Positions 166-39,356 of a DNA stretch of 64,000 bases are shown piece after piece (positions within the stretch are counted from its first letter, which is position 1; every line of letters starts with the position of its first letter). Both the position numbers and the translations under genes were made by a program. This DNA is from an uncultured Allomuricauda sp. (GTDB lineage Bacteria > Bacteroidota > Bacteroidia > Flavobacteriales > Flavobacteriaceae), in NCBI RefSeq assembly GCF_937884665.1, contig NZ_CAKZYF010000106.1:1-64000 (forward strand). The letters are read 5' to 3'. The notes below the pieces were generated by a model. That model made no database searches, was not told the origin of the DNA, and saw only the letters and a list, made by a program, of their open reading frames with translations.

Positions 166-1353
166 ATGAAAAAGTTAGTACTCATTTTAACAGGTGTTCT
201 TTTTGGAACTTTTGGTACTATGGCTGCCCCAGTGGAAGCGGATGCTTTCTCGACCAGTACGTACCGCTACGGAAACTCCTTCATCTTTGTGGAAGGTGGC
301 GTAACTTTTTCAGTATACCCAGATGGAGAGTTTGACTTTTACATTAATAATCAAGTTAATGTAGGTGTTGGGGCCCAAATTGGAAATGTTGGAATTACAT
401 TCAACTCCGGGTTCAATTATAATCCATTTGTCCAATATGATGATTACGGTGCTGTTGTTCAAGTTGAAAATATTCCGGTTTTCTATGACTTTTATGGCCG
501 CGTGTCGCAAATTGGAGGTGTGGATATCTGGTACAGGAATGGAAGGGTAAGAAGAGTTGGTGGACTGAATATATTTTATAATGGTGGTGTTTTTAGTCAC
601 TACACTGGTTTCATCAATGTTTATAACAGACGTTATATCTATAGACCGTTTCACAGGTTCTTTGCACGACCAGCGGTTGGATTCTGTAATGTGTTCTACA
701 CGCCTTATAGAAGATACTATAGGCCGCTACGATATACCTATTATAGACCGTATCGAAACAATTATAGAAGGGCTTACGCTCGTCTAGGAAAAACATACAG
801 AAATGATAGAGGTGTACGAAGAGCCAATATTTATAGAAATGATAGACGGGTCACCGTACGAAATAATGATGTCAGGAGAAATAGTGCAGTGCGGTCGAAT
901 CGCTCCGTGGAACGTTCCATTTCTAGGTCAAATTCAAATAGGGTTTCTAACGTAAACCGTAATGAAAACTTAAGAAGATCAAATGGTAAAACACGAAATA
1001 GTGTAAGCCGATCGGAAAGTACGGTGCGAAGAAACAGCAATGTAAATAGAAATAACAATAGCGTGAGTAGAACGGTTACCCAGCGTCAGGTTACACGAAC
1101 TCCCAATACGAGAACTGTAAATCGTCGTCAGGTGACCACCACTCCAAGAAGTAAAACGGTGAACCGAAGTACGACCAGCAGAACGTACAAGTCACCGAAC
1201 ACCACAAAAAGGAGTGTTGCCAGCAGGAGCAATTCTTCAAACAGAAATGTAAAAAGGAACTCTTCGGCGACAGTCAAAAGAAGTACGGGAAATTCCACTT
1301 CTAGAAGAAGTAGCAGTAGTTCAAAATCAAGACGGAGTTCTAGAACAAGATAA
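166..1353 (+). CDS. Exported protein, structured N-terminal half, long Arg/Ser/Asn/Thr-rich low-complexity C-terminal tail
   Basis: 395 aa ORF; N-terminal signal-like MKKLVLILTGVLFGTFGTMAAP; extreme R/S/N composition from about residue 180; followed by a strong terminator hairpin. Confidence 0.8.
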   Translation: MKKLVLILTGVLFGTFGTMAAPVEADAFSTSTYRYGNSFIFVEGGVTFSVYPDGEFDFYINNQVNVGVGAQIGNVGITFNSGFNYNPFVQYDDYGAVVQVENIPVFYDFYGRVSQIGGVDIWYRNGRVRRVGGLNIFYNGGVFSHYTGFINVYNRRYIYRPFHRFFARPAVGFCNVFYTPYRRYYRPLRYTYYRPYRNNYRRAYARLGKTYRNDRGVRRANIYRNDRRVTVRNNDVRRNSAVRSNRSVERSISRSNSNRVSNVNRNENLRRSNGKTRNSVSRSESTVRRNSNVNRNNNSVSRTVTQRQVTRTPNTRTVNRRQVTTTPRSKTVNRSTTSRTYKSPNTTKRSVASRSNSSNRNVKRNSSATVKRSTGNSTSRRSSSSSKSRRSSRTR

Positions 1354-33575: not shown

Positions 33576-35204
33576 ATGGATTTGAACTTCAATAAGAACG
33601 AAGACCACAATAAACTCAAACTTTCAGAATTAAAAAAGAGACTTGCGCAAATAAAGCTTGGTGGCGGTAAGACCCGAATAGAAAAGCATCATGCCAAGGG
33701 AAAAATGACCGCCAGAGAACGAATTTCCTATTTATTGGACAATGATGCTGATTCCATCGAAATAGGTGCTTTTGCCGGAGAAGAAATGTACCAGGACCAC
33801 GGCGGATGTCCATCTGGTGGGGTAGTTGTCAAAATTGGTCATATCCAAGGAAAACCCTGTGTTGTGGTGGCCAATGATGCCACGGTAAAGGCAGGGGCTT
33901 GGTTTCCCATTACCGGAAAGAAAAATTTAAGAGCCCAGGAAATTTCAATAGAAAACCGATTACCCATTATCTACTTGGTGGACAGTGCCGGGGTTTACCT
34001 CCCCATGCAAGACGAGATTTTTCCGGATAAAGAACATTTTGGGCGAATCTTTCGGAACAACGCCATCATGAGCAGTATGGGAATTACGCAGATTTCGGCA
34101 GTAATGGGAAGTTGTGTGGCCGGGGGTGCCTATCTTCCCATAATGAGTGACGAGGCACTTATCGTGGACAAAACAGGAAGTATTTTTCTAGCTGGAAGTT
34201 ACTTGGTAAAAGCCGCGATCGGGGAGAGTATAGATAACGAAACCCTCGGTGGTGCCACAACACATTCTGAGATTAGCGGTGTAACGGATTATAAGGCCAA
34301 GGATGATAAAGATGCCCTGGCGACCATCAAAAATATTGTAGGCAAAATAGGTGATTTTGAGAAAGCGGGTTTCAATAGGGTGGCACCAAAACTTCCTAAA
34401 GAAAATCAACAGGATATCTATGGGATTTTACCCAAATCCCGAAGTGACCAATATAATATGCTCGAAATCATAAACCGCTTGGTGGACGATTCAGATTTTG
34501 AACAATATAAACAAGGATATGGGCAAAGTATTCTTACAGGTTATGCCCGAATAAATGGTTGGGCCATAGGTATTGTGGCCAATCAAAGAAAAGTTGTGAA
34601 GACCAAAAAGGGTGAAATGCAGTTTGGAGGTGTGATTTATTCAGATTCTGCGGACAAAGCGACCCGATTTATCGCCAACTGCAACCAAAAGAAGATTCCC
34701 CTTGTCTTTTTACAAGATGTAACTGGTTTTATGGTGGGAAGTAAAAGTGAACACGGGGGCATAATAAAAGATGGAGCAAAAATGGTAAATGCGGTGAGCA
34801 ACTCTGTGGTACCCAAATTTACCGTGGTCATAGGAAATAGCTACGGCGCGGGAAACTATGCCATGTGCGGCAAAGCTTATGATCCACGACTTATTGTAGC
34901 CTGGCCCAGTGCCGAACTTGCGGTCATGAGCGGCAATTCAGCGGCAAAAGTATTACTTCAGATAGAAAAGGCCACCCTAGAGAAAAAAGGGGAAACCTTT
35001 GACGCCGAAAAAGAAAAAGCACTTTTCAGTGCAATAAAACAGCGCTACGACCATCAAATATCGCCTTATTATGCGGCAGCACGTCTTTGGACCGATGCCA
35101 TAATCGATCCCTTAGAAACCCGAAAATGGATTTCTATGGGAATTGAGGCCGCTGACCAAGCGCCCATCAAAAAGCAATTTAACATGGGGTTGTTACAGGT
35201 TTAA
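33576..35204 (+). CDS. Acyl-CoA carboxylase carboxyltransferase (beta) subunit
   Basis: 542 aa; 'RERISYLLDNDADSIEIG', 'GSCVAGGAYLPIMSDEALIV', 'GNSYGAGNYAMCGKAYDPRLIVAWPSAELAVMSG'. Confidence 0.92.
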   Translation: MDLNFNKNEDHNKLKLSELKKRLAQIKLGGGKTRIEKHHAKGKMTARERISYLLDNDADSIEIGAFAGEEMYQDHGGCPSGGVVVKIGHIQGKPCVVVANDATVKAGAWFPITGKKNLRAQEISIENRLPIIYLVDSAGVYLPMQDEIFPDKEHFGRIFRNNAIMSSMGITQISAVMGSCVAGGAYLPIMSDEALIVDKTGSIFLAGSYLVKAAIGESIDNETLGGATTHSEISGVTDYKAKDDKDALATIKNIVGKIGDFEKAGFNRVAPKLPKENQQDIYGILPKSRSDQYNMLEIINRLVDDSDFEQYKQGYGQSILTGYARINGWAIGIVANQRKVVKTKKGEMQFGGVIYSDSADKATRFIANCNQKKIPLVFLQDVTGFMVGSKSEHGGIIKDGAKMVNAVSNSVVPKFTVVIGNSYGAGNYAMCGKAYDPRLIVAWPSAELAVMSGNSAAKVLLQIEKATLEKKGETFDAEKEKALFSAIKQRYDHQISPYYAAARLWTDAIIDPLETRKWISMGIEAADQAPIKKQFNMGLLQV

Positions 35205-37208
35205 TCAGTCTATGATAAATTTGGCGAGTTGCTTTTTTTCATTGGGTTCTTGCAGTCTGACCATATAAGACGCTTGCTTTTGGTTTGGTCTCCCAAAATT
35301 TTTGACCACTGTACATTTTAAGAATGTTGCCAGATAATCCGAATTCTTTCCAGAGCCTGCTAAGGGTGTTACATTTAAAATCCATTCTCCGACTGTTTCA
35401 GCACCAAGTATTTCAAATTGTTCCATAGCGCTGCCGACCTCAAGGGCTTTGGTAAACTCCTGGACATTTGACAACCGTGTATGTTCCCAGTCAAAGAAGC
35501 GCTTCTGAGGATTCACGAACTGTACAACAAATTCGGCTTCCGGATTGCTCCATTCCAAAATGAGCCTAGCATTATAGGTAATATTGTTCTGATATTTCAA
35601 ATCCACCTTAGAAACATCCAGATTACTTCGATGACTGTTGATTAAATTTCGTATTTCGGAACCAAGGGATTTTCCAAAACCTTCAGGTTTAGAAGAGGCA
35701 TTGATTTCATTCTGAATCAACGCATAGAGTGTGTTCAAAGCAACCTGATACCTAGCAAGATTGCGGTTTACCACAGCGAAATCAAAGCTATTTTGGATTT
35801 TAGCAGGATAGTCCAAGATAAGTCGGTTTACTATGGCGAGAGCCAAGTCGTGGTTGTTAACAGTGGAGCTCTTCAAATAGGCCGCTCGAAGCATCTCATA
35901 GGTCGGGGACTCCATCTCCAGCACATTGGACAAAATCCGAAAAGCAACATCTGGCGAAGACGCATAGAAAAAATCAAACACATCGGACCAATAGTTTCCC
36001 TCACCTTTGAACTTCTCTCGTTGATTTAGGTAAATGTCATAGGCACTTCGAACATTTTTCCCTTTTTTTAACTCTTTTAAATAAGGGGTTATCAGCGCTT
36101 TAGTATCGATTTTGATTTTTGTATCGTAAAAATTATCTTTTAATTGCATGGCATTGGAACTCTCGTTGTCCGCACTACCATAACTTCCCGTTTTTGTCGT
36201 AATCAGCAAGACTCCGTTAGCGCCCAGAGTACCATAAATATTGGTGGCAGCCAGTCCCTTCAGTACGGTGACATCTTCTATGTTCTTGGGGTCCAAAAAA
36301 CTCGTGGGATAGAAAATTCCATTGGCCGAGGACTGGGATTGGGGTAGAGGAACTCCATCAACCACAATTAACCCATAATTATTTCCCAATAGCGAATTAC
36401 TTGGTCTAAGTACGGCTCTGCTCAAATCGTCATTCTGTGCCAACGCAACTCCCGAGAATTTTCCTTGAATTCCGGTATTTACCGTAGTGGCCGCATCTAA
36501 AATTCGTTCGCTACCTATACTTTGAACCGCATAGCCTAAAGCATCTTTGTCTTTTTTGCCCAAAGCCATGTTTTCTTTTGTATCCGGGTTTTTTTGAGTT
36601 TCAGTTACTACTACTTCTTCCAATCGTACCCCTTTTTTCATATCGAGTTTTGCGCTATCTGATTTTATGACGTTTTGGGCTCCGGCGACCGTACTATCTT
36701 TCCTTTTGGTCCGGGTATTTGCTGAAAGATTTAAAAATTCCGCTTTGCCCAGAATAGAAAGTAGATTGATGGTACGCGTATCATACTTGGGAGAACTATT
36801 GATAACCACGGTCTCACCACCAAATTTTGGAGTGGTTTTGTTCAAGTTCTGTGTTCCGTCTGTAAAGAAGAGATGGTACCCGTCCGAAGCAAGGGACTCC
36901 AGTCCCTGGAAGGAAGTAGCACCGTCATACCGAATATCCTGTATTCTAGTTCGAAGGGCTGTCCAGTCTCCTGCGTTTATCGTGAAGTCCTCTTTAAAAC
37001 GGACGGTATCACTAAATCCGACCAGAAGAACCTTGGTGTCCTGAAAACGCTTAAAGTACGCATCCAAGTACTTCATTTCCATTAGACTGTCACGATATAT
37101 TCTAGAAGTGGATGTATCCCAAAATATGACGGTCCGCGCTTTATCTTGGGAAAAAAGACTTTGGTACAGTAGCAAAAAACCTATCAAATAAACGCCTTTA
37201 AATTTCAT
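35205..37208 (-). CDS. VWA-like / TonB-receptor plug / TPR-like / DUF2135-like protein lacking a beta-barrel
   Basis: 667 aa; plug motif 'YGLIVVDGVPLPQSQ...NIEDVTVLKGLAATNIYGTLGANGVLLITTK'; N-terminal VWA-like fold (TVIFWDTSTS...LFFTDGTQ); C-terminal 'LEWSNPEAEFVVQFVNP...VVKNFGRPNQK'. Confidence 0.7.
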   Translation of the reverse strand: MKFKGVYLIGFLLLYQSLFSQDKARTVIFWDTSTSRIYRDSLMEMKYLDAYFKRFQDTKVLLVGFSDTVRFKEDFTINAGDWTALRTRIQDIRYDGATSFQGLESLASDGYHLFFTDGTQNLNKTTPKFGGETVVINSSPKYDTRTINLLSILGKAEFLNLSANTRTKRKDSTVAGAQNVIKSDSAKLDMKKGVRLEEVVVTETQKNPDTKENMALGKKDKDALGYAVQSIGSERILDAATTVNTGIQGKFSGVALAQNDDLSRAVLRPSNSLLGNNYGLIVVDGVPLPQSQSSANGIFYPTSFLDPKNIEDVTVLKGLAATNIYGTLGANGVLLITTKTGSYGSADNESSNAMQLKDNFYDTKIKIDTKALITPYLKELKKGKNVRSAYDIYLNQREKFKGEGNYWSDVFDFFYASSPDVAFRILSNVLEMESPTYEMLRAAYLKSSTVNNHDLALAIVNRLILDYPAKIQNSFDFAVVNRNLARYQVALNTLYALIQNEINASSKPEGFGKSLGSEIRNLINSHRSNLDVSKVDLKYQNNITYNARLILEWSNPEAEFVVQFVNPQKRFFDWEHTRLSNVQEFTKALEVGSAMEQFEILGAETVGEWILNVTPLAGSGKNSDYLATFLKCTVVKNFGRPNQKQASYMVRLQEPNEKKQLAKFIID

Positions 37209-37568
37209 TGTGGAACGGTTTGGCTTATTGCTTATAAATAATCAAAACGAATGAGGTTTAAACTATCTGCTAGTTAGAAGCTTTTGTGAATTCAAGTTCC
37301 TTCTTTCAACAATTTCAACGTATTTGGTCCGGTAACCTGAATCTCTTACTTGGGATTGGAGTGGATTGTATATCGCCCTTACGCATCGGTACGGGGCGAC
37401 TCCTTAGCGATTAAGGACACCCTTGTTCAAAATTCCAATGTTCCCCTGTAGAATGGAGGCCTGAGTCTTTGCACTTAGCACCCTACCCTAGTCGTCTTTT
37501 TGAACTGATACTGGAAATGCTATCTGAGGCCATAAAAATATGTTTCAATAATAACCGTTGCCTACATC

Positions 37569-39356
37569 CTATGTTCCCGTTTGAGCGGCTTTGTTTATTT
37601 GAAACAACTGGCGATTTACATCTTTGATATCTAATTTAAAGATCTTGGTTTCTTTTGACTGGGATTTGGTTCCATAATTGTGATAAATCGTCGCTCTTAA
37701 ATAGGCGGGGGTCAAGCTCTTATTTCCCAGATATTTCAGGTTTACTTTCCACGTACCCGGTAAGGAAGCGTCAATCAAATACTCTCGCGTGGAATAACCG
37801 TAGTCTTTTTCCCTACTGATGGTATTGGGACTGGCTTCCAGACTATGGGTCCAAGTGTAGAACTGGTTTTCCGGATTAACAAACTGGAGTTCAAATTCAG
37901 CCTCACTATCGCTCCAATCAAAAACGATACGGGTACCATCAAAATCTTCATCGTCCACCTTTATTTTTTTTGTTTTGGATTTTACCACATCCGTCTTTTC
38001 CAAGGCCAAAAGATTGTTGAAATCTCTATTGAGCATCTTCGAAAACATGGTGGTATCCGCACTCATAAAACCTTGATCCAGCAAGTAAAAATAGCGGGCA
38101 TACAAAATAGCGGACTTCTTTGGTTTATCAATATCCCGATTGCTGTTCGCCAAATCCATATAGGATTGCGCATAATTGGGACGTAATATAAACACTTCCC
38201 GGAAGGCATCGTTCGCTTTGTCATACCGTTCTTGGCTCTCGTAGATATAGGCCAAGGATTTTAAGTGTACAGGATTTAATCCTATGGTCGTGTAGGCATC
38301 CTCTATGATTTGATCGGCATACGTTTCGTTTTTCCAAGTATCGTAAAAGTATTGGTAAGCATCCAAAACAAAATAGGGCGAAGCAGCATATTTCTCCGCG
38401 TTGGATTCATACACTGTTTTAGCTTCTTCAAATGTATCGGAACCCCGAAGTTGCTTCATGTAAGACGGTGCATTTTTTGTGAGACTCTCTTGGTTCAGGG
38501 CTTTTCCGTCGTAAAAGTTGTTTTTAAGTCTGGCCCTGTCTATAATCTGCCCTCGGCTATCTCGTGGAGGAATTCCTATACCATTTTTTGTATTGATAAC
38601 AATGACGCCGCCCCTTCCAATATTTCCGTATCTCGTAGTTCCGATGATGGATGAAATAACACCGATTCGTTCAATATTCTGCACATCGATAAAGTCGGGA
38701 AATTGTGTGAAAATCTGACCATCAATATCGAATACCGCACGTCCACCGCGCAATAAGACCGCTCGACCGGCATTAACGCCCGAGGTCCCAGCGAAACCCG
38801 TATCTGGACCAGCTGCAAAATTCGTCCCGAAACCCGGTCCGTCCAAAACCCGAATACCAGCAAACCTGTTTCGCAATACGTTGGCCAAATCGAACTCACC
38901 TGGAAGTATTTTATCCCCATCAAGTGCACGCACGGAATAGGAAACATACTCTTTGTTCAGATATCCAAAAAAGGTTTTTAGAATATTGGGGTTGAAATAG
39001 TAATCTTCTTCCAATTCTTTTTGGCTGGAGCGTCTTCGCGTGGAGACCGTTACGTTATCCAATTTTTCAATTTTGGGGAACATATCCACGTTCAAGACCC
39101 GAGTCACATCCTCCACCCTTATCTGTAAAGGTTCCATACCATCACTTGCATAAAAAAGCAAGTCACCTGTAGAAGCCAGGATTTTGTACTTACCTTCGGC
39201 ATTTGTGGTCGTGGAGGTACCCGCATTAATAATTTGAATCTTGACGTTGGACATCGGGCTTTCACCATCTTGGACCGTACCCGTTATCCATCGTTCTTGG
39301 GCAAAACCTAAAAGAGAAATACAAAAGAGAGCAAAGAAGAAAAGCTGTTTTTTCAT
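37569..39356 (-). CDS. Carboxypeptidase-regulatory-like / TonB plug / TPR-like / DUF2135-like protein lacking a beta-barrel
   Basis: 595 aa; N-terminal 'GTVQDGESPMSNVKIQIINAGTSTTTNAEGKYKILAS', plug 'NIERIGVISSIIGTTRYGNIGRGGVIVINTK', C-terminal 'FDWSDSEAEFELQFVNPENQFYTWTHS' paralogous to the neighbouring ORF. Confidence 0.7.
   Translation of the reverse strand: MKKQLFFFALFCISLLGFAQERWITGTVQDGESPMSNVKIQIINAGTSTTTNAEGKYKILASTGDLLFYASDGMEPLQIRVEDVTRVLNVDMFPKIEKLDNVTVSTRRRSSQKELEEDYYFNPNILKTFFGYLNKEYVSYSVRALDGDKILPGEFDLANVLRNRFAGIRVLDGPGFGTNFAAGPDTGFAGTSGVNAGRAVLLRGGRAVFDIDGQIFTQFPDFIDVQNIERIGVISSIIGTTRYGNIGRGGVIVINTKNGIGIPPRDSRGQIIDRARLKNNFYDGKALNQESLTKNAPSYMKQLRGSDTFEEAKTVYESNAEKYAASPYFVLDAYQYFYDTWKNETYADQIIEDAYTTIGLNPVHLKSLAYIYESQERYDKANDAFREVFILRPNYAQSYMDLANSNRDIDKPKKSAILYARYFYLLDQGFMSADTTMFSKMLNRDFNNLLALEKTDVVKSKTKKIKVDDEDFDGTRIVFDWSDSEAEFELQFVNPENQFYTWTHSLEASPNTISREKDYGYSTREYLIDASLPGTWKVNLKYLGNKSLTPAYLRATIYHNYGTKSQSKETKIFKLDIKDVNRQLFQINKAAQTGT

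Follow-up and report, generated by a model that had tools for sequence, protein, structure and literature searches.

What does a TonB-dependent receptor plug do when no barrel surrounds it? Both plugs and TonB boxes are regarded as components of barrels in the outer membrane, and SusC/RagA transporters (TIGR04056) carry them in the order N-terminal extension (NTE, PF13715), TonB box, plug (PF07715) and 22-strand barrel. The question is raised by two genes, P0001 and P0002, on the minus strand of a 64,000-nt stretch of an uncultured Allomuricauda sp. genome (contig NZ_CAKZYF010000106.1; the full stretch is called the window here). A preliminary description had read them as paired barrel-less plug proteins, and both reading frames, of 667 and 595 aa, were confirmed at their positions (Table 1). 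P0002 lies upstream and P0001 downstream, with a gap of 360 bp between them. As predicted from domains, models and relatives, each protein joins a SusC-type plug to a TPR solenoid and a DUF2135-like sandwich, and such barrel-less plug proteins appear as a widespread, conserved architecture.

Pfam Plug matched P0001 residues 224–333 with 39.9 bits (cut-off 23.9). The SusC model TIGR04056 gave 93 bits over P0001 residues 214–361 and 34 bits in P0002, in front parts only (cut-off 368), and the SusC signature TIGR04057 reached 43.7 bits in P0001, slightly below its cut-off of 46.2. The closest PDB relatives of the P0001 plug are SusC plugs (E 4.9e-17), Foldseek with the P0001 model returned the SusC plugs 8aa4 and 5fq6, and the domain is 50% identical to a SusC plug from the same genome. 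P0002 had no Pfam Plug match of its own in a single-sequence scan; profile–profile alignment with hhalign matched its plug region to transporter plugs at 99.1% over 124 columns and to P0001-type plugs at 99.8%. Both proteins thus contain the plug domain first proposed for them.

AlphaFold2 (AF2) models, built on alignments of 40 sequences for P0001 and 86 for P0002, had mean predicted local distance difference test (pLDDT) scores of 80.9 and 87.2. Both models show a plug-like alpha/beta domain followed by an alpha-helical solenoid and then a C-terminal beta-sandwich, these last two occupying the place of a barrel; neither contains a 22-strand beta-barrel. TPR and DUF2135 fall below cut-off in single sequences, but the C-terminal parts can be aligned to clear-cut VIT-TPR-DUF2135 proteins, L057 and L058 among them. 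For P0002, CarbopepD_reg (PF13715), DUF2135 and TPR are all sub-threshold in Pfam, and Foldseek with its model also returns TPR proteins. P0001 and P0002 are homologous over the plug, TPR and C-terminal domains (BLASTP 114 bits, 23% identity, E 1e-30), which supports their earlier designation as paralogues with a matching C-terminal domain. The models and family alignment likewise uphold a helical TPR-like region and a DUF2135-like sandwich in place of a barrel. No complete barrel was found and a significant plug match was, the points on which the preliminary description had staked itself beforehand. The modeled absence of a barrel indicates that P0001 and P0002 are not TonB-dependent transporters. 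A truncated or frameshifted SusC was ruled out, because the same architecture recurs across a large family and no barrel frame is present. Other short plug reading frames in the genome, where checked, were mostly at contig ends, frameshift-like or of ordinary receptor length. The accessory protein BamP of the beta-barrel assembly machinery (BAM) was rejected, as NF053692 scored only 31 bits (cut-off 230) and its match was confined to the N-terminal region; an anti-phage defence system was rejected with 0 PADLOC families.

The N-terminal parts had been described as VWA-like in P0001 and carboxypeptidase-regulatory-like in P0002, and both assignments hold. The P0001 VWA domain is genuine, with a complete metal ion-dependent adhesion site (MIDAS) pattern, DxSxS...T...DG, and Foldseek matches to VWA domains including that of CLCA1 (6pyo). 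D31-x-S33-x-S35 and D117-G118 are invariant across P0001 orthologues and the ~1000-aa relatives, T98 is retained in P0001 orthologues, and [WY]DxSxS is kept in 58 of 65 VWA-bearing family proteins. P0002 has no VWA domain. A SusC NTE forms its N-terminal part (Foldseek 9hfj, template modeling score 0.85 over the target, 1.7 Å). Neither protein has a VIT domain match.

A search with the TPR-DUF2135 module alignment found relatives in 110 of 301 Flavobacteriaceae genomes (99 of these at E < 1e-40). Of 297 genomes across the phylum, 54 had relatives, 27 being strong matches; weak matches cover only part of the module, mainly its TPR. The relatives have several domain orders. VIT-VWA-TPR-DUF2135 proteins of about 1000 aa occur phylum-wide (L057 has a partial plug), and VIT-VWA-NTE-plug-TPR-DUF2135 proteins reach about 1100 aa. 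VWA-NTE-plug-TPR-DUF2135 proteins (about 720–745 aa) may carry an additional C380-like domain in front (about 1000 aa; C380 is described below). P0001 belongs to the VWA-plug-TPR-DUF2135 form (667–678 aa), which has lost the NTE, and P0002 to the NTE-plug-TPR-DUF2135 form (mostly about 580–620 aa; 131 copies in named loci), which also exists behind a C380-like domain (about 870–890 aa). Pfam Plug was detected in 25 of 40 family members scanned, P0002-type plugs often lying below detection, and some relatives (G033, G026) have in-frame stops. The proposed reuse of the plug fold outside a barrel is therefore borne out by a conserved architecture that combines it with TPR, a DUF2135-like domain and either VWA or NTE. 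No study of this protein family was found in the literature searched, an absence that is not proof.

The strongest clue to mechanism is a TonB-box-like motif. In the SusC protein Bt1763, the TonB box VDEVVV is experimentally required (PMC7782687). LEEVVVTE in P0001 and LDNVTV in P0002 sit where a TonB box precedes the plug, the family consensus is L[DE]EV[VT]V, and we regard LEEVVV and LDNVTV as putative TonB-box-like motifs. In a set of 20 P0001-type proteins, the box has a mean pairwise identity of 61%, versus 23% and 18% for its flanks, and LEEVVV ranks first of 43 six-residue windows in the disordered segment of P0001 (0.68 versus a median of 0.26). Four NTE-less proteins retain the motif, as LEEVVVTE or LDEVVVKE; the box in NTE-less proteins is 100%, 100% and 75% identical to the window copy, against 10–30% in the flanks. 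Since it is kept without an NTE, the motif of P0001-type proteins is not merely an NTE edge. Within the P0002 family, L99 is conserved in 83 of 83 sequences, V102 in 82 of 83 and V104 in 79 of 83, and pLDDT drops below 50 at P0002 residues 101–106, in the region of the box-like motif. The same genome encodes four TonB C-terminal-domain proteins.

The plug is also the best-conserved folded domain of P0001, 78–82% identical to close orthologues versus 53–59% for the VWA domain. The TonB-box-like motif and, in P0001, the plug are selectively retained. Among P0002-type proteins the plug varies more than the C-terminal domain, as if it were diversifying.

Family genes form co-directional arrays of 1–5 genes; L207, L210, L199 and other loci hold tandem arrays of up to five, and the P0002 form can itself be present in as many as five copies. 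In named loci, neighboring family or C380 genes make 125 adjacent pairs, every one co-directional, with a median gap of 73 bp. The usual neighbors are a secreted M24 peptidase gene on one side, present in 98 of 138 loci (not equivalent to independent genomes, as some genomes are counted twice, under a G label and as named loci), and a convergent acyl-CoA carboxylase gene on the other. A third gene, C380, is normally part of the array. In the three nearest relatives (L187, L190 and L251), the order is M24, P0002, C380, P0001, carboxylase. C380 encodes about 380 aa (L187:8797-9945), with a CarbopepD domain, an unnamed middle domain and a second CarbopepD domain. The middle domain (about residues 128–300) has no Pfam match and, in the loci examined, turned up solely in C380 or as a fusion to members of this plug family. 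Elsewhere it is fused to 14 family proteins, which links the third gene to the plug proteins.

The window keeps C380 as a decayed pseudogene. Within the 360-bp gap, tblastn found a fragment up to 60% identical to C380 residues 12–49, with an internal stop, and a weaker fragment matching residues 330–348; no intact C380 was found elsewhere in the genome, where only generic NTE matches occurred. The adjacent P0002 and P0001 genes are thus the remains of a trio, and the two-protein unit proposed at the outset was incomplete. By its nearest named relatives, the genome falls in the Flagellimonas/Allomuricauda genus group. In a genus sample, 11 genomes besides that of the window have P0001 orthologues, and a P0002-type gene is adjacent in 10 of the 11; in the eleventh, a fragmented assembly, it lies on a different contig. 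Many genomes have P0002-type genes and no P0001-type gene, and outside the genus VWA-type genes can lack a neighboring P0002 form (L172, L185). The dependence between P0001 and P0002 is one-sided.

The location of these proteins had been left as surface or periplasmic. A lipobox-like motif was found within the first 40 residues of only 2 of 270 family proteins, and Pfam scans of P0001, P0002 and family members gave no match to the C-terminal domain of the type IX secretion system (T9SS). These results do not support a surface location and make the periplasm the simpler reading; the family is probably soluble and periplasmic.

Putting these features together, we tentatively propose, at slightly under an even chance, that P0001 and P0002 are soluble periplasmic clients of TonB–ExbBD, from a family with the front half of a SusC protein (NTE, TonB box and plug) grafted between VWA and TPR-DUF2135 modules. 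Family proteins would form an envelope complex in which the VWA domain with its metal site, the TPR solenoid and the C-terminal sandwich bind partners, possibly P0002, C380 or ligands of other kinds. The inner-membrane motor TonB–ExbBD would bind the P0001 box and pull on or remodel the plug as in a transporter, so that the plug would serve the scaffold as a docking or force-responsive element and not as a channel gate. P0001 may be the motor-engaging subunit and P0002, with its degenerate plug, a structural partner. Coupling of envelope proteins with CarbopepD/NTE and vWA domains to TonB/TolA-like force has been proposed (PMC12204202). The broader idea is possible and rather unlikely: a class of soluble, barrel-less TonB clients in which TonB grips the box on periplasmic VWA-plug-TPR-DUF2135 scaffolds and force is spent beyond barrel transport.

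Several observations weigh against TonB clients. The case for TonB binding by the box is an indirect one, of resemblance in sequence. LxEVVV trails many NTE/CarbopepD domains, so that conservation in P0002 could partly be a domain-edge effect, and the box of P0002 itself is imperfect (LDNVTV). The P0001 plug was modeled with only medium confidence (pLDDT about 72–81), and the P0002-type plug is among the least conserved parts of its proteins, at 39% mean pairwise identity versus 60% for the C-terminal domain. Genes of the TonB system were not noticed at the locus. With C380 broken, the unit may be in decay in this genome.

The variability of P0002-type plugs, together with their frequent failure to reach Pfam detection, is what would be expected if the plug were a static interaction module, a stable fold reused for partner binding or for packing on TPR or VWA without TonB. 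The architecture fits such a module as well, which leaves unexplained why an unstructured box tops the conservation of the P0001 linker, even after loss of the NTE; we hold it to be doubtful. A decoy or regulator is improbable. Here the free plug and box would compete for TonB, or dock into or onto SusC barrels, tuning SusCD transport, and the closeness of the P0001 plug to functional SusC plugs and the 55 plug matches over the Pfam cut-off in this genome are in keeping with that role. However, VWA, TPR, DUF2135 and C380 would be superfluous for a decoy, the family plugs form a group distinct from transporter plugs, and no recurrent linkage to SusCD genes was seen among neighbor clusters. No SusD-like gene was recognised among recurrent neighbor clusters either, as judged by gene order and sequence, the clusters not each being scanned. 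An evolutionary relic, in which VIT/VWA-TPR-DUF2135 proteins with captured plugs serve no selected function and are being lost, would account for the C380 pseudogene, the degenerate P0002 plugs and the in-frame stops in relatives, but is very improbable given an architecture retained across many genera and a P0001-type plug whose standing as the most conserved folded domain indicates purifying selection.

To trace the origin of the plugs, we built an exploratory tree (101 rows, 126 columns, midpoint root). A branch with 97% support in the Shimodaira–Hasegawa-like approximate likelihood ratio test (SH-aLRT) separates P0001-, P0002- and long-type plugs from those of transporters and of YfbK-type and VIT-type proteins. 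With P0001 and P0002 on the same side, their plugs probably descend from a single capture of the SusC front half, and YfbK and VIT proteins probably made captures of their own. The midpoint root and short alignment make this tree suggestive. The separate grouping of YfbK and VIT plugs gave no support to a single origin of all VWA-linked plugs, but 126 columns cannot fix the number of captures; plug capture by VWA-linked proteins looks recurrent. At one locus, a VIT-type protein (L178:7999-11346) and a YfbK-type protein (L178:11550-13715) have sister plugs with 100% support, suggesting that different VWA proteins swapped plugs or underwent gene conversion. At L191:3286-5385 and roughly 20 further loci, barrel-less proteins of the YfbK VWA type bear a SusC NTE and plug; several relatives encode them close to the chromosomal site of the array. 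Shorter members of the YfbK cluster (475–478 aa) have NTE and VWA and no plug match.

The features of the locus are collected in Table 1. The carboxylase gene (plus strand, ending at 35204) and P0001, whose stop codon reaches 35205, converge with zero bases between them. No terminator-like site was found at the 35204/35205 junction, and consensus promoters and terminators showed no excess over shuffles.

Table 1. Positions in the window of P0001, P0002, their predicted domains and the C380 remnant.
Feature	Residues	Position	Strand	Description and basis
P0001		35205..37208	-	667 aa: signal peptide, VWA, disordered linker with TonB-box-like motif, SusC-type plug, TPR, DUF2135-like sandwich
P0001 VWA domain	22-165	36714..37145	-	MIDAS residues D31xS33xS35, T98, D117-G118; alignment and Foldseek
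P0001 disordered linker	167-213		-	
P0001 TonB-box-like motif LEEVVVTE	196-203	36600..36623	-	Within disordered linker; conservation versus flanks
P0001 plug domain	214-342	36183..36569	-	PF07715, TIGR04056, Foldseek, hhalign 99.9%
P0001 alpha-helical TPR-like solenoid	375-535	35604..36086	-	AF2 model and family alignment
P0001 C-terminal DUF2135-like beta-sandwich	540-666	35211..35591	-	AF2; homology to DUF2135 of VIT proteins
P0002		37569..39356	-	595 aa: signal peptide, SusC NTE, box-like motif, degenerate plug, TPR, DUF2135-like sandwich
P0002 NTE / CarbopepD_reg domain	22-105	39042..39293	-	PF13715 26.8 bits; Foldseek 9hfj
P0002 TonB-box-like motif LDNVTV	99-104	39045..39062	-	Conserved positions in family
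P0002 degenerate plug	125-262	38571..38984	-	hhalign 99.1% to transporter plugs; AF2
P0002 TPR solenoid	289-457	37986..38492	-	AF2; TPR matches
P0002 C-terminal DUF2135-like beta-sandwich	468-589	37590..37955	-	DUF2135 18.6 bits (sub-cut-off); AF2
C380 remnant (NTE-like, central domain, NTE-like)		37349..37541	-	tblastn fragments; intact in L187, L190, L251

If a large conserved family retains both plug and box with no barrel, then either TonB does work on soluble machines of the periplasm or the plug has taken on a further role as a binding module. Under either reading, some genes annotated as receptors because of a plug domain are not receptors.

The window proteins can be compared with several known systems. 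They share with SusC/RagA the NTE (in P0002 and the 720-aa P0001 orthologues), the TonB-box-like motif and the plug, in the same order; they differ in lacking the barrel, in a C-terminal half made of TPR and a DUF2135-like sandwich, in a VWA domain that often stands in front, and in being probably soluble. The VIT-VWA-TPR-DUF2135 proteins of Bacteroidota (L057, L058, L164–L166) have VWA (as in P0001), TPR and DUF2135 in the same order and are homologous to the window proteins over the C-terminal 300 residues, whereas P0001 and P0002 lack VIT and typical VIT forms lack a full plug. Some Flavobacteriaceae VIT forms (L159, L160 and L178) do have an NTE-plug in the corresponding position, although these plugs fall in another part of the tree. 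The YfbK-type VWA proteins (e.g. L191:3286-5385) similarly lack a barrel and carry NTE and plug, and some are encoded at the same site of the chromosome, but they have a YfbK_C / vWF_A architecture without TPR or DUF2135, and their plugs fall outside the P0001/P0002 clan. PorE and vWA-type force transducers (PMC12204202) are alike in being envelope proteins with CarbopepD or vWA domains and a proposed coupling to TolA/TonB-like force; their other domains differ, no plug is described for PorE in that work, and their vWA proteins are tethered to the inner membrane. New here are a TonB-box-like motif conserved even without an NTE, a plug that is the most conserved folded domain of P0001, and C380 as a member of the array.

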